From an uncultured Methylophilaceae bacterium (lineage in GTDB: Bacteria; Pseudomonadota; Gammaproteobacteria; Burkholderiales; Methylophilaceae), in the NCBI GenBank assembly GCA_903863255.1, contig CAIPBJ010000053.1, positions 1 to 35,584 on the forward strand: 35,584 nt of DNA. Direction: 5' to 3'. This document shows, in pieces, positions 201 through 35,487 of this stretch (positions are counted from its first letter, which is position 1; every line of letters starts with the position of its first letter). Under the pieces are notes generated by a model. It saw only the letters and a list, made by a program, of their open reading frames with translations, made no database searches and was not told where the DNA came from. The position numbers were made by a program, and so were the translations under genes.

Positions 201-509
201 ATGCAAAGTCAAAAAATCCGTATTCGTCTTAAAGCGTTTGATTATCGTCTTATTGATCAATCTGCTCAGGAGATTGTAGAAACTGCCAAACGTACAGGGG
301 CTGTTGTTAAGGGACCTGTGCCATTGCCAACGAGAATTGAACGTTTTGATATTCTTCGTTCACCTCACGTTAATAAAACATCGCGTGACCAATTTGAAAT
401 TCGCACGCATCAACGCTTGATGGATATTGTTGATCCTACAGACAAGACTGTCGATGCGTTGATGAAATTAGATTTGCCAGCGGGCGTGGATGTAGAGATT
501 AAGTTGTAA
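201..509 (+). CDS. rpsJ: 30S ribosomal protein S10
   Basis: This 102-residue protein begins [20 protein letters not shown] and carries the S10 signature region [20 protein letters not shown] (about residues 53-72). S10 is part of the 30S head, and as NusE it also joins the NusB antitermination complex. The ATG follows an AAAGG Shine-Dalgarno-like stretch at 189-193. It lies between tuf and rplC. A good candidate promoter overlaps its stop codon, so rplC may begin a separate transcription unit. Length is within one residue of typical orthologues. Confidence 0.97.
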
Positions 510-29042: not shown

Positions 29043-29930
29043 CTAAGTTTCCAAAGTGTCTTCAACGATATTATGAAATTTTGTTAGATTGATTATTCTT
29101 TGTCCATCAGATGTGATGTTTAATATATCTACAAATCGATAATCAAAGGCCAAGTCTTCAGCTTCGTATATTTTACTTGCAAAGACTGGTGCAGCCATTG
29201 TTTCATCTTGTCCAGTCACGTTCAGTGTGATGCGCGAGTAAGTTTCTGCTAGCATTTCCGGTTCCTGACCAAACAGAGGGCTGCTAGTATCTATGGTATG
29301 GATGAGTGTCCAAGTAAGCCGAAATACTGGACTACGTTCACGAACCAGCGGTAAATCGTGAATTCGAAGAAACCGTTCTCCTTGAGTATTAATTTCCATT
29401 CTTACCAAGTTAAGTTTTGCTGTAGCTTCAACAATCTGATTGTATCGCTCGTTTGCAATTCGAATCATTAAAACTCGATTGCCTTCGAAATTCCTTATAA
29501 CAGCGACATCACTGAAAAGTATACGCGCCGTGGGTTTTGAAAACCTTACAAAAACAATTCCTGTTACCAATGCTACTGCAACCATACCGGATAGAATCTC
29601 GAATGAAGCGACGATATGACCAGCAAGGTTTGCAGGGGACATTACGCCGTAACCCACCGTAGCAAGTGTCTCTATGCTAAAAAAGAAATAATTCAGGAAG
29701 TTTTCGTGAGACGTGTTTACAACACTTCCTGGAATTAACCAGTAAATCGTCCCAAAAAACATATTCACAACAAAAAAGGCAAATAACAAAAGGATAAAGA
29801 ACCTAGTCCAGCTCAATGTTAAAACGGTGTGATAGGGATCATGAAGTTTTAATGGGTGTGTTTTATGGGTTAGTATCTGTGCATTACCCACATTTAGGGT
29901 GTCGAAAGCGGTTTTTTTTGACTTATTCAT
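29043..29930 (-). CDS. Inward-rectifier potassium channel (KirBac type)
   Basis: This 295-residue channel has two membrane helices (about 43-65 and 105-129) around the pore loop with selectivity filter TVGYG at 91-95. FSKPTARILFSDVAVI follows, then the cytoplasmic immunoglobulin-like Kir domain with DLPLVRERSPVFRLTWTLIH. It should conduct potassium and be gated by lipids or cytoplasmic ligands. An AGGAG is present but 15 bases before the ATG, longer than usual. It is convergent with the cytochromes and divergent from the small gene at 30038. Confidence 0.93.
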   Translation of the reverse strand: MNKSKKTAFDTLNVGNAQILTHKTHPLKLHDPYHTVLTLSWTRFFILLLFAFFVVNMFFGTIYWLIPGSVVNTSHENFLNYFFFSIETLATVGYGVMSPANLAGHIVASFEILSGMVAVALVTGIVFVRFSKPTARILFSDVAVIRNFEGNRVLMIRIANERYNQIVEATAKLNLVRMEINTQGERFLRIHDLPLVRERSPVFRLTWTLIHTIDTSSPLFGQEPEMLAETYSRITLNVTGQDETMAAPVFASKIYEAEDLAFDYRFVDILNITSDGQRIINLTKFHNIVEDTLET

Positions 29931-30921: not shown

Positions 30922-31299
30922 TTATTGTTGTGGCGGTGGGGTTGGGACAACTTTAACCCATCCGCCAGGACAATCCTTAACGTAGGGGTAATACCCGTCC
31001 GGATTGTTACAGTGATACCAATAATTATTCGATTGCGGTGCAGTCGGGGGCTCGATTTGTGGCTGCGGACTTTGTTCTATATAGACCGGAGGTTGGGTCT
31101 GAACCGGAGGGTAATAATAAGGGTCAGGGTATGTATAATATGGATAAGGATAATACGGACCAATGGGAACCCCGAAATACAGCCCGAAGTGACCGCCGTG
31201 TTCGTGACCTTCCCAATGGCCATGATCTGCCATGGCTTGTCCACTAAGGGCAACGCCCAGCGCTAATAAAATAACTGAAATGAATCTGGAATTCTTCAT
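30922..31299 (-). CDS. Secreted Tyr/Pro-rich protein with His-rich N-terminus
   Basis: This 125-residue protein has a clear signal peptide (cleavage after QAMA, residue 24). The mature protein starts with a His-rich stretch DHGHWEGHEHGGH and continues with a Tyr/Pro-rich run (PYYPYPYY and similar). The end has the two-cysteine motif WYHCNNPDGYYPYVKDCPGG followed by WVKVVP, seen in many small uncharacterised periplasmic proteins of proteobacteria. GAGGAAGCC precedes the ATG well. Metal binding by the His cluster is possible but unproven. It probably forms a two-gene unit with the lipoprotein. Confidence 0.8.
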   Translation of the reverse strand: MKNSRFISVILLALGVALSGQAMADHGHWEGHEHGGHFGLYFGVPIGPYYPYPYYTYPDPYYYPPVQTQPPVYIEQSPQPQIEPPTAPQSNNYWYHCNNPDGYYPYVKDCPGGWVKVVPTPPPQQ

Positions 31300-31510
31300 G
31301 ATGGCTTCCTCAATTGATGCTATCCCTACCTTATTTAGTCATTGTTTGTATTTGACAACATCCAAGTATCCTAGTTTTTTCTTAACAGGATCGTTTTGTA
31401 ACGTCATGTATCCGTCCCAAAAACGTTCTAATTGACAGCGTACAATTTTGTGAGATCTACATAATGATACAAATCAAGTAAAGTCGGAAATAATTGAGAT
31501 ACCTGAACAT

Positions 31511-31606
31511 GGCCTAATAATGCCTGATTATTGGTCATTGCCAATAACTTGCGCTTACCCCTTGGCGCAATGGATTGGGCGGGGGAGACCCCCGCCCGTT
31601 TTTTTT
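31511..31606 (+). ncRNA. Putative structured leader or small RNA upstream of the mlaC-like gene
   Basis: Four elements follow each other on the plus strand. Hairpin A at 31511-31536 has about 10 bp with one bulged T and loop GCCTG. Alternative hairpin B pairs TTATTGG (31528-31534) with CCAATAA (31541-31547) and excludes A. Hairpin C pairs TTGCGC (31549-31554) with GCGCAA (31565-31570). The terminator follows at 31577-31606. Mutually exclusive helices before a terminator 24 bases from an ATG fit a riboswitch-like attenuator. A free-standing small RNA is the alternative. No known riboswitch class was recognised. Confidence 0.45.
31577..31606 (+). terminator. Strong intrinsic terminator directly upstream of the mlaC-like gene
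   Basis: GGGCGGGGG, loop AGA and CCCCCGCCC form a perfect 9-bp all-GC stem followed by G and eight T. It points along the plus strand, yet the nearest upstream plus-strand gene ended about 1.2 kb earlier. It must therefore end an unannotated short transcript or attenuate the gene that starts at 31630. Confidence 0.9.
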
Positions 31607-31629
31607 ACTGAATAGGGTACATAAACATC

Positions 31630-32241
31630 ATGAACATGAAGAAATATTTATTTGGAACGGCATTCCTACTTTTTACGTCGACGTTTGGGATTGCAAGTGC
31701 AGAAGCGATTGCCCCGGATGAAATGGTTAAAAATACCGCAAACGAAGTGATTGAAGTTCTCAAGGAGAACCAATCAAACAATGGTGCGATGGATATTAAT
31801 CAAGTTGGAAAATTGGTTGAAGATAAAATTGCCTCAAAATTCGATTTTGAACGTATGTCTCGTATGGTGCTTGGAAAAAATTGGGTATTGGCTTCCAAAT
31901 CTCAGCAGGACCAATTTGTAATTGAGTTCCGTTCACTTCTTGTTCGAACATATTCTTCCGCGCTTCAAAAATTCAAAGGCCAGACGATAGAATATAAACC
32001 GATGATGGTTGGGGCGACCGAGAATGAGGCTAATGTAAAGACGCTGGTCAGCCAGCCTGGATCAACACCCATACCAATTGAATATGCATTGGAGAGAAAA
32101 GCTGACACATGGAATCTGTATGACGTAAGGATTGATGGATTAAGTTTGGTAACCTCGTATCGTGGTCAATTCTCAGAAGAAATAAGGAAAAATGGAATTG
32201 AAGGCGTGATTCAGAAACTTACGGAAAAGAATAAGGGTTAG
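31630..32241 (+). CDS. MlaC/Ttg2D-family periplasmic phospholipid-binding protein
   Basis: This 203-residue protein has a signal peptide ending IASA (residue 24) and the MlaC (Tgt2) pattern: KIASKFDFERMSRMVLGKNW, SQQDQFVIEFRSLLVRTYSS and LYDVRIDGLSLVTSYRGQFS. MlaC proteins shuttle phospholipid between the outer-membrane MlaA complex and the inner-membrane MlaFEDB transporter. No other mla gene is in the window, so this is an orphan here. A second ATG at codon 3 (31636) is possible. AGGG lies 13 bases before 31630. Its expression must pass the terminator that ends 24 bases upstream. Confidence 0.9.
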   Translation: MNMKKYLFGTAFLLFTSTFGIASAEAIAPDEMVKNTANEVIEVLKENQSNNGAMDINQVGKLVEDKIASKFDFERMSRMVLGKNWVLASKSQQDQFVIEFRSLLVRTYSSALQKFKGQTIEYKPMMVGATENEANVKTLVSQPGSTPIPIEYALERKADTWNLYDVRIDGLSLVTSYRGQFSEEIRKNGIEGVIQKLTEKNKG

Positions 32242-33124: not shown

Positions 33125-34474
33125 TTAACTGATGGGAAGTTCCAGGGTTGCAATTAGTCCAGATTGACCGTTATCTTTGTTTTCCAGTTTAATTGTTCCT
33201 CGGTGTCTTCCAGCAATAATTCTTGCTATCGTTAAACCTAAGCCAGTTCCCCCAGTACTGCGAGACCTTGAATCCTCAATGCGCTTGAAAGGCTCAAATA
33301 CTGATTCCAATTGATCCTTGGGAATACCTGAACCTCCGTCAACGATTGAAATGATGACCATTGATTTTTCCTGCCTGACATGGATTTCTGCATATTTCCC
33401 ATACTTAACGGCGTTATCAACGAGATTGGAAATACATCTTCGAAGTGCACCTGGCGAAGCCATGATAGTTCTTCCTATCCTGCCTTTATGGGTTACTTGG
33501 CATCCGGCATCTATAGCATCGTTGCATATTGCCTCGACAAGGGAGTCTAGATCAATTGACTCGAAAGGTTCTTCTTTATTCATGGTTTGAGCGAAGTCCA
33601 GACCTTCTTTTACCATGTTTTGTGTTGCAGCCAGATCTGAAATCAGCATTGAACGTAATTCAGTATCCTTGACTTTCTCCAACCTTAATCTTAAACGCGT
33701 GAGGGGAGTTTGCAGGTCGTGTGCAATGGCTGCAAGCATGTAAGTCCTCTCCTGGATATGGTTGCGAATGCTGGTTTGCATGGAATTAAAGGCAATGGAA
33801 GCTTCTCGGACCTCTCTGGATCCATGCTTTGTCGGAAGAGGATGGTGTTCAATATTCCTTCCAAGATCCCTTGCGGCTTGTGCCAGTCTTCGTAATGGTT
33901 TTGTTGCTATATGCGCAACAATTAAAGCGAGGATGCTGATGATCAACAAAAAAGCCAGGACGTTGAATGGAAAGGGTCCGCGAAAAGGAGGAGGTGGCAG
34001 ATCCCGGAAAGCAATGTCCAGACGAATCGGCGTGCCGTCTTTCAGAGACGTGAACACGGTTTGACAATGTTTAATTTCATTTGGCGGGAATTCTTCCGGA
34101 TGCCTTATCGGGCAATCTGCTCCCCAGCGTTCAAAGGCGCTGATGGTTCGATCATCACCCAATATGTGCTTAAGTGCCTCAGAAAAGTCAGAACTGGTAG
34201 GTGTTCCTATTATAGTAGACGAATTGGTGAGGTCCGTATGGATGCCAGAATGTTCATTGATCGCAATGATGGAACCTCTGGAGTCCTTAGGAACAGCTTC
34301 CAACGAGAGAATCAGTTGTTGTACCCTTTCTGCAGCATGACGAGACCGTATCTGTAAAGCTAGGTCCTTTCGCTCATATTCCGCAAGTGTAAAGACCAGT
34401 GCTCCGGAAATCACTGTTCCGCCAACCAAAATAAGAAAAATCCTGCTGGTCATCGAACTGAAAAATTGATTCAT
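33125..34474 (-). CDS. Sensor histidine kinase (EnvZ/QseC-like)
   Basis: This 449-residue membrane kinase has TM1 at about 11-31, a periplasmic domain at 32-168 with two cysteines (Cys121 and Cys137), TM2 at about 171-190, HAMP at 191-243, a dimerisation domain with phospho-acceptor His252 (AHDLQTPLTRLR), N box NLVDNAVKYG (350-359), G1 DGGSGIP (379-385) and G2 GGTGLGL (408-414). The stimulus is unknown. The start overlaps the regulator's stop as ATGA, so the pair is cotranslated. A proline run (LPPPPFRG) marks the membrane re-entry. Confidence 0.93.
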   Translation of the reverse strand: MNQFFSSMTSRIFLILVGGTVISGALVFTLAEYERKDLALQIRSRHAAERVQQLILSLEAVPKDSRGSIIAINEHSGIHTDLTNSSTIIGTPTSSDFSEALKHILGDDRTISAFERWGADCPIRHPEEFPPNEIKHCQTVFTSLKDGTPIRLDIAFRDLPPPPFRGPFPFNVLAFLLIISILALIVAHIATKPLRRLAQAARDLGRNIEHHPLPTKHGSREVREASIAFNSMQTSIRNHIQERTYMLAAIAHDLQTPLTRLRLRLEKVKDTELRSMLISDLAATQNMVKEGLDFAQTMNKEEPFESIDLDSLVEAICNDAIDAGCQVTHKGRIGRTIMASPGALRRCISNLVDNAVKYGKYAEIHVRQEKSMVIISIVDGGSGIPKDQLESVFEPFKRIEDSRSRSTGGTGLGLTIARIIAGRHRGTIKLENKDNGQSGLIATLELPIS

Positions 34475-35220
34475 GATTGTCGCTCTACGTTGATCGTTGT
34501 TGCCAATACGTAACCTTCATTTCGGACGGTTTTTATTATAGATGGCGCTTTCGGATCCTCTTCTATTCTCTGTCGGAGGCGACTAACCTGAAGATCGATG
34601 GATCTATCAAAAGGGGTTGTGTCACGTCCATGGATATAATCCATGAGTTGATCCCTGCTGAGGATGCGATTGGCATGATCAAGAAAAATCTTTAAGAGTC
34701 TGAATTCCGCTCCAGATAGAGAAACGATGACACCTTGATCATTTATGAGATGCCTCGCGGTTATATCTAAGGTCCAGTTTGCAAAACTTATTCTAACCGG
34801 TTCCATCGTTTCTTTGGCTGTCTTGGCTGTCATGCTGGAGCGTCTCATGACGCTTCTGATTCTCGACAAAAGCTCAAGAGGCTCAAATGGCTTGCAAACA
34901 TAATCATCCGCGCCTGATTCTAAACCAATCACACGATCGAGAGGATTGGATTTCGCTGTCAGCATAATGATAGGTAAACTCGTCTCGGATCGTAATTGTC
35001 TGCAAAGGGAAAGACCGTCAATTTCCGGAAGATTCAAGTCTAGGATGATGATATCGACTCTCTGGGTTTTTAGGATATCCCACATAACTTTACCATCTTC
35101 TGCCTGGCGTACCTTCAAGCCGTTATTTTCAAGGATATCTGAAAGTAAGGAACGAATGTCGTTGTCGTCATCGACTATAAGAACGTGAATTTCATTTTCG
35201 AAACTTAACGGATTATTCAT
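34471..35220 (-). CDS. Response regulator, OmpR/PhoB family
   Basis: This 249-residue protein has a receiver domain with acidic residues Asp17 to Asp19, phospho-acceptor Asp61 (IIILDLNLPEIDG), Thr88 and Lys110. A winged-helix DNA-binding domain follows from about residue 145 (LSGAEFRLLKIFLDH; DRSIDLQVSRLRQRI; IKTVRNEGYVLA). It is transcribed first, with the kinase overlapping by 4 bases. Its target is unknown. Candidates are its own upstream region, which holds repeats, and the neighbouring Ser-rich gene. Resemblance to OmpR-type regulators of porin or envelope genes is only at family level. Confidence 0.94.
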   Translation of the reverse strand: MNNPLSFENEIHVLIVDDDNDIRSLLSDILENNGLKVRQAEDGKVMWDILKTQRVDIIILDLNLPEIDGLSLCRQLRSETSLPIIMLTAKSNPLDRVIGLESGADDYVCKPFEPLELLSRIRSVMRRSSMTAKTAKETMEPVRISFANWTLDITARHLINDQGVIVSLSGAEFRLLKIFLDHANRILSRDQLMDYIHGRDTTPFDRSIDLQVSRLRQRIEEDPKAPSIIKTVRNEGYVLATTINVERQS

Positions 35221-35389
35221 TATGCATTCGCTTTCTTAGGAGGATAATTCGTATTGGCACCACAACAAATACATCTCCGATTTACTTTCTCTTGGTTAAT
35301 TCAAACCTTATTGCATACCCTGATTTTAGAACTATGTTAGTTAACGTGTTCATTTAAGCAAAAAAAAGTATCATGTATTTATCATTAGC

Positions 35390-35487
35390 TTTCTAACTTG
35401 TACCAAATTGTATCTATCTATCAACTATCGATAAATGAAAAGTATGTTTTCATTTATTCAAAATGTCGTATAGCGTTTCTAACTTGT
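35390..35487. repeat. Two 12-base direct repeats, TTTCTAACTTGT
   Basis: TTTCTAACTTGT occurs at 35390-35401 and again at 35476-35487, 86 bases apart start to start. Both copies are preceded by AGC, the second with one extra G. They flank the inverted repeat. Such an arrangement could be paired regulator sites. Chance cannot be excluded in AT-rich sequence. Confidence 0.45.
35431..35457. repeat. Perfect 11-bp inverted repeat with 5-base loop
   Basis: ATAAATGAAAA (35431-35441), GTATG and TTTTCATTTAT (35447-35457) match exactly. No T tract beyond the arms suggests a terminator. It lies about 210-240 bases upstream of the response-regulator start and is a candidate operator. Confidence 0.6.

Follow-up and report, generated by a model that had tools for sequence, protein, structure and literature searches.

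OmrA and OmrB are enterobacterial small RNAs (sRNAs) that are tied to an OmpR-class regulator and to the envelope. In Listeria, the LhrC sRNAs depend on LisRK and are induced by envelope stress, and the accessible sections of their description report binding of the target mRNA through CU-rich motifs that lie in a stem-loop, in a single strand, and in the terminator (PMC4132741). The Bae envelope-stress regulon of E. coli includes spy and the mdt-bae operon, as given in the available part of its source (PMC2731931). The RstA box, TACANNNNNNTACA, is presented in the portion of its report used here as a TACA-N6-TACA direct repeat (PMC4117788). In literature coverage from which subscription journals are mostly absent, no small-RNA study was found among the matches listed for Methylophilaceae, Methylotenera, or Methylophilus. 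Likewise, no OmpR envelope-stress sRNA was found for betaproteobacteria, and no MlaC-linked sRNA unit was found by title or abstract start.

The window, the whole stretch of 35,584 nucleotides analyzed here, contains a structured region in front of a stand-alone mlaC gene. An earlier note had offered two readings of it, attenuation of mlaC by a signal or a short RNA encoded at this position. Our analysis points to positions 31458-31606 as a small-RNA gene that is driven by a response regulator and is probably trans-acting, a reading to which we give a probability of about 0.72. Because its promoter signature recurs before stress genes and sRNA-like units, the RNA is probably switched on by the nearby membrane-stress sensor system. 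The features of the locus are as follows.

30922-31299, minus strand: secreted 125-aa HGH/YPYP-rich protein without a Pfam family, predicted regulon member
31349-31410, minus strand: second promoter copy, before the secreted-protein gene, without the TG of the extended -10 (47.8 bits, leave-out matrix)
31458-31471, plus strand: predicted distal response-regulator box, TACATAATGATACA (TACA-N6-TACA), placed by site alignment and of the RstA-box form
31486-31503, plus strand: proximal box, GGAAATA-N4-AGATACC, with the spacing of the G007:C11 leader and aligned in other genomes
31510-31518, plus strand: predicted extended -10, TGG-CCTAAT (TGGCCTAAT), consensus TGNTNNAAT, with C for T in the window copy
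31511-31536, plus strand: first helix of the earlier note, its 5' arm over the predicted -10 (site alignment, folds)
31525-31606, plus strand: predicted small RNA of about 82 nt, promoter to terminator, 5' end predicted to +/-3 nt (z -4.84 for 31527-31607)
31528-31547, plus strand: hairpin 1 of the RNA (pair probability 0.993-0.997 for starts 31520-31528)
31549-31570, plus strand: hairpin 2 (pair probability 1.0), with the C-rich apical loop UACCCCUU at 31556-31563 as candidate pairing site
31577-31606, plus strand: intrinsic terminator, 9 G-C pairs and 8 T (sequence and folds)
31630-32241, plus strand: stand-alone mlaC paralogue (PF05494, 3.7e-51)
33125-34474, minus strand: sensor histidine kinase, EnvZ/CpxA-like (HATPase_c, HAMP)
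34471-35220, minus strand: OmpR-class response regulator, likely an activator (PF00072 and PF00486)
about 35350-35412, minus strand: third promoter copy, before the response-regulator gene (37.5 bits, leave-out matrix; E 0.009 with the model R2)

The signature upstream of the RNA covers 63 bp and consists of a TACA-N6-TACA box, a GAAAWA-N4-GATAC box, and an extended -10. Among 23 aligned sites, TACA-N6-TACA is exact in 16 and its second TACA is present in 22. The extended -10 is reached by 22 aligned sites and carries AAT in all of them (22/22), TG in 17, and the whole consensus in 16. The initial guess of the start had used a promoter of TTGAGA at 31494 and AATAAT at 31516; it was rejected when the 23-site alignment placed the -10 at 31513-31518. 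Sigma-54 and ECF promoter readings were weighed by eye and dropped. Three copies of the signature lie in the window, before the RNA, the divergent secreted-protein gene, and the response-regulator/histidine-kinase pair (33125-35220), and autoregulation of the response regulator is predicted from the third. At the level of sequence, the predicted RNA has its own promoter with putative regulator boxes, as a two-component-controlled sRNA would.

A blastn search of 31480-31640 against 41 genomes gave, beyond the window itself, only short chance-size matches, and a plasmid search found none. Reading upstream of the MlaC homologues of the family revealed one orthologous leader, in another genus (G007:C11), which also precedes a stand-alone mlaC. 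The stem sequences of the two leaders differ, while the order of hairpin, hairpin, and terminator is kept. The block that they retain with identical spacing, ACAAATCA-N9-GGAAATA-N4-AGATACCTGAA, lies upstream of the predicted RNA; when up to 3 mismatches are allowed, 2 of 187 family genomes carry it. A long inverted repeat, seen by eye after a flagellin-like frame (L065, 2904-2945), immediately precedes the G007 RNA unit and is probably the terminator of that flagellin-like gene.

Three models were used to search for the signature. R1, which was built from the two blocks at 2 sites and used sequence only, matched copies in other genomes as well as a weak minus-strand copy in the window (E 0.058), before gene 30922-31299. 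Most of its matches beyond about E 0.01 were AT-rich, and this weaker set was left out apart from two members, G004:C59 (0.014) and the minus-strand copy in the window, which were retained because they align without gaps. R2, a 6-site model, gave two further copies in this genome, on contigs C54 and C37, and the response-regulator copy in the window. R3, a 23-site model, found 74 sites at E <= 1e-3 in 41 of the 187 family genomes, 23 of them training sites and 51 not; 146 of the 187 genomes had no site at this threshold. Circularity was controlled with a weight matrix from 18 sites, none from this genome, although the alignment that placed the sites did include them. This leave-out matrix scored the window copies at 47.8, 43.2, and 37.5 bits, with the next best window position at -2.5 bits and the best score on 100 dinucleotide-shuffled windows at 16.3 bits. 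When the G007 sites were also removed (13 sites), the copies scored 43.2, 39.4, and 36.1 bits and the shuffles at most 10.3.

An order-wide search at E <= 1e-5 had positives in 12 of 379 genomes, 2 of these being family members. The sites outside the family number 13, in 10 of the 379 genomes searched, and precede LTXXQ genes (5), EF-hand-type protein genes (4), a response regulator (1), and others (3). In family f15 of the order, this promoter type stands before an EF-hand-type protein in four genomes (L228, L230, L232, and L233; one Pfam-tested, the rest assigned by likeness).

The genes downstream were inspected for 64 of the 74 R3 sites, and 5 more sites were inspected separately. Spy-like genes follow 19 of the 64, and in 17 of these cases a regulator gene comes next, no more than 1200 nt from where the site begins. 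Five sites stand directly before a regulator, and in 22 of the 64 an OmpR-class regulator gene lies at most 1200 nt downstream. Secreted HGH/YPYP proteins (the window's or homologues) follow nine sites, Skp/OmpH proteins two (both Pfam-confirmed), and RND adaptors two, one of which was tested and belongs to the MdtA family with 423.2 bits against a cut-off of 391; 14 sites are sRNA-like units. Eight are upstream of other frames, and the seven of them checked by coordinates are all divergent from an OmpR-class gene. Two of these divergent regulators (G010 and G046) were tested with the OmpR model and score 366.1 and 351.9 bits against its cut-off of 331. Five sites precede frames not tied to the regulon (G062:C35, G205:C46, G007:C6, G206:C170, and G134:C154:498). 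The R1 match on G205:C227 precedes a Spy-like gene.

The five sites of this genome precede the RNA with mlaC, the secreted protein, the regulator pair, a Spy-like LTXXQ protein, and MdtA. This set is, as predicted from its genes and sites, a Bae-like envelope-stress regulon, which fits the earlier note's hint at envelope stress. Two further arrangements were observed. On G134:C154 (L203), divergent promoter copies stand back to back as in the window (432-485 minus, 498-559 plus), flanked by a regulator gene on one side and, on the other, by a frame that was not linked to the regulon. Near the regulon genes of the window, 29043-29930 encodes an inward-rectifier-type potassium channel (IRK_C, Ion_trans_2).

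The best NCBIfam model for the regulator at 34471-35220 is OmpR, with 239.6 bits, below the cut-off of 331. The BaeR model gives 166.8 bits against a cut-off of 380, which does not identify a BaeR orthologue, and the RstA model gives 159.2 against 330. For the kinase at 33125-34474, the best model is EnvZ, with 190.4 bits, below its cut-off of 415. A second OmpR-class regulator of this genome is encoded on C44. In all 8 genomes of genus g20 with the RNA, a single regulator passes E 1e-45 and is 43-44% identical. Sites are present in G004, G062, and G205 with no regulator above 46% identity, and G001, conversely, lacks a site at E <= 1e-3 but has a regulator at 61%. Since regulator and sites do not always co-occur, the safe claim is control by the OmpR class and not by one given regulator.

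The terminator is built from the arms GGGCGGGGG (31577-31585) and CCCCCGCCC (31589-31597), which enclose the loop 31586-31588 and are followed by eight T at 31599-31606. On its own it folds with -21.9 kcal/mol versus a shuffle mean of -10.9, and the perfect 9-bp GC stem with eight T described in the earlier note is thus confirmed. The other elements of that description were also recovered. The helices 31511-31536 (-6.7 kcal/mol) and 31528-31547 (-6.6 kcal/mol) are mutually exclusive and near-equal in energy, and a stable third hairpin occupies 31549-31570 (-9.1 kcal/mol, computed on 31550-31571). There is no upstream gene to terminate, because the neighbor 30922-31299 is on the minus strand and runs divergently from the leader. 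The 81 bases 31527-31607 fold with -38.8 kcal/mol (z -4.84), and 31440-31640 has z -3.04; in both cases 0 of 200 shuffles were as good.

In partition-function folds from eight 5' ends, the terminator has P 0.999 and hairpin 31549-31570 has P 1.0, whichever 5' helix is favored. For an RNA starting at 31507, helix 31511-31536 is dominant (P 0.57 versus 0.38), and from 31511 onward helix 31528-31547 is dominant. As the RNA is predicted to start near 31525, the 5' arm of helix 31511-31536 sits in the predicted -10 element and is probably not transcribed. The predicted product is a short RNA that ends at an intrinsic terminator, as is expected of a two-component sRNA.

The same combination of promoter and terminator was found elsewhere. 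A strict terminator was defined by at least 7 perfect pairs (G-T allowed), four G-C, and six T of eight, and it lies 127-179 nt after the site start at 14 of the 64 sites. The same search on 50 dinucleotide shuffles gave a mean of 0.04 and a maximum of 1, and on the reverse strand 0. Eight of the 14 units are outside the model training; the 14 are not independent, as several are close relatives. Only this window and G007:C11 have mlaC behind the unit, and the other 12 have none within 1200 nt of the site start. Downstream of the G017:C3 unit is a porin, and downstream of 5 of the 6 genus-g20 units is CTP synthase by reading frame (one Pfam-tested). The sixth has no frame in the part read, and the remaining strict units have no common downstream gene. 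Four further such units were found among 5 of the ten R3 sites outside the 64. The recurring promoter and these units support the short RNA that the earlier note had proposed as one of its two options.

The CTP-synthase-linked form, with 9 units from two genera (8 from one), has 14 adjoining invariant columns, AGTTATCTCCTTGT, the last nine of which (UCUCCUUGU) are unpaired in the predicted fold and would be compatible with a pairing region. Its second hairpin and terminator are variable, and its covariation is weak, with changes on both sides in 2 of 26 predicted pairs and a covariation term of -0.13. C-rich tetramers occur in 18 of 18 RNA bodies versus 14.4 of 18 when shuffled (maximum 18), which is no excess beyond composition. 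The body of the window RNA has the architecture of the other units in common with them and not the sequence, and its tie to them therefore rests on the promoter. At gathering score, an Rfam search of 8 related loci gave only tRNAs.

The promoter signature, its copies, the terminator, and the recurrence of promoter-plus-terminator units were established by computation, and from them we infer how the small-RNA gene would work. A phosphorylated OmpR-class regulator, most likely that at 34471-35220, encoded about 3 kb away, and possibly that of C44, would bind the two tandem boxes and activate the extended -10. Transcription would begin near 31525 and stop at the terminator, giving a product of about 82 nt. 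It would probably be made under envelope stress, since the same promoter type stands before the regulator pair, the secreted protein, the Spy-like chaperone, and the MdtA-type adaptor. The RNA would probably act in trans by pairing of its C-rich loop with envelope mRNAs at Shine-Dalgarno-like sequences; this action is suggested by analogy of kind with LhrC, and the pairing role of hairpin 2 by CU-rich stretches in other units. The confinement of the C-rich stretch to a short hairpin loop in the window counts against the small-RNA reading. More speculatively, cis pairing of the loop with the ribosome-binding region of mlaC can be imagined (UACCC 31556-31560 with GGGUA 31615-31619), a match of five pairs that is at chance level. 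The downstream mlaC would be reached via read-through or an unrecognized promoter; read-through is possible since no other promoter was recognized before the gene.

The gene behind the terminator was called MlaC-family in the earlier note, and Pfam agrees (PF05494, 173.6 bits versus a cut-off of 26). Against the NCBIfam equivalog for E. coli-type MlaC it scores 66.9 bits, below the cut-off of 195. The genome has 3 MlaC homologues, and the copy on C93 lies behind an MlaD-like reading frame (by eye). One scan of genome contigs gave a single distant MlaC. The closest intact orthologue of the window gene, G064:C42, is 59-60% identical and has no leader of the window type upstream. In a tree of MlaC sequences, G064:C42 and the fragment G145:C5 share a group with the window gene (99/96), and G007:C11 lies elsewhere (98/85). 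On G022:C152 (L069, 3204-4674), homologues of three window genes, those for the secreted protein, the lipoprotein, and MlaC, are clustered in the same orientation, which suggests an older linkage of the three; G022 has no R3 site at E <= 1e-3.

A different role for the same elements is a regulated mlaC leader, in which the regulator drives an mRNA that mostly ends at the terminator, a factor, a ligand, or translation controls read-through, and the short RNA is a by-product. We consider this unlikely, though it accounts for several observations. The gap from terminator to mlaC is short, 23 nt here and, according to which start codon is taken, 44 or 71 nt in G007:C11, and between them no other sigma-70-like or regulon promoter was recognized, so that the separate promoter whose presence was to speak against a leader did not appear. 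A leader function would likewise suit the two units that are followed by mlaC, and a single clade of all four stand-alone mlaC genes is not rejected by the AU test (p 0.19). The minus-strand G145:C5 (L086) carries a degenerate stand-alone mlaC fragment related to the window gene, with two in-frame TAA; about 46 bases in front of it, a terminator-like hairpin was noted by eye, and R3 found no site in G145 at E <= 1e-3. However, the helices 31511-31536 and 31528-31547 are not an antiterminator, because the terminator and the third hairpin form regardless of the 5' helix, and no structure competing with the terminator appeared in the folds from eight 5' ends. Moreover, the closest intact orthologue is leaderless, and 12 of the 14 strict units lack a nearby mlaC. 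The stems have diverged in the sole orthologous leader, where conserved pairing had been anticipated.

It is still less probable that the unit is a promoter with a terminator that merely shields mlaC from transcription started upstream, with a functionless RNA. Such a role would suit the window unit, whose body sequence is not conserved and whose target pairing is hypothetical, but it does not explain why promoter-plus-strict-terminator units occur at 14 of the 64 sites, before different genes, nor why the CTP-synthase-linked form keeps its invariant columns across two genera. A ligand-binding riboswitch of a new class, with the two about equally stable and mutually exclusive 5' helices as its switch, is very improbable. 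Part of the first helix falls within the predicted promoter, and in 8 of 8 folds the terminator has P 0.999, with neither helix competing against it. The stems of G007:C11 reveal no conserved aptamer, and what is conserved is a block in front of the RNA that is also present before genes of unrelated kinds.

Rfam had no family at gathering score in the window, in line with the earlier note's failure to recognize a riboswitch class. On 31440-31640 it gave 17 matches, all subthreshold, with the highest at 23.8 bits versus a cut-off of 79; AniS reached 18.1 bits versus 50, and the RNA was not assigned to OmrA, OmrB, or any other Rfam sRNA family. Of the two options in the earlier note, the short RNA is supported by the recurring promoter and the 14 terminator units, and attenuation of mlaC or a riboswitch is not supported by the folds, Rfam, or the relatives.

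The small-RNA gene may have a wider meaning. A bolder and doubtful extension would be a dual output under envelope stress, in which the trans-acting sRNA lowers outer-membrane protein synthesis and read-through supplies extra MlaC to clear misplaced phospholipid; more widely, one fixed response-regulator promoter would yield sRNAs with unrelated bodies beside mlaC, porin, and CTP synthase. Sequence data alone thus lead to a predicted envelope-stress regulon of a regulator pair, a chaperone, an efflux adaptor, a secreted protein, and a small RNA. This would link stress signaling to a second, stand-alone MlaC, and it comes with promoter positions predicted to the nucleotide.

Comparing the locus with the described systems, the window RNA resembles LhrC as an envelope-stress small RNA under a two-component system. 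It differs in phylum, regulator, and sequence, and binding and a target are demonstrated for LhrC in the accessible sections of its description, whereas those of the window RNA are proposed (PMC4132741). Similar to OmrA and OmrB, the window sRNA is tied to an OmpR-class regulator and to the envelope, but no sequence relation to them was found by Rfam in the window and the 8 related loci. As in the Bae regulon, Spy-like and MdtA-family genes (423.2 bits, cut-off 391) and the regulator pair appear to be under one promoter type. However, the window regulator scores best as OmpR and not as BaeR, and the BaeR targets named in the available part of that source include neither a secreted HGH/YPYP protein nor a small RNA (PMC2731931). 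The distal box of the window has the identical TACA-N6-TACA form of the RstA box as presented in the portion of its report used here (PMC4117788), whereas the window promoter adds a second box at a fixed distance and an extended -10.
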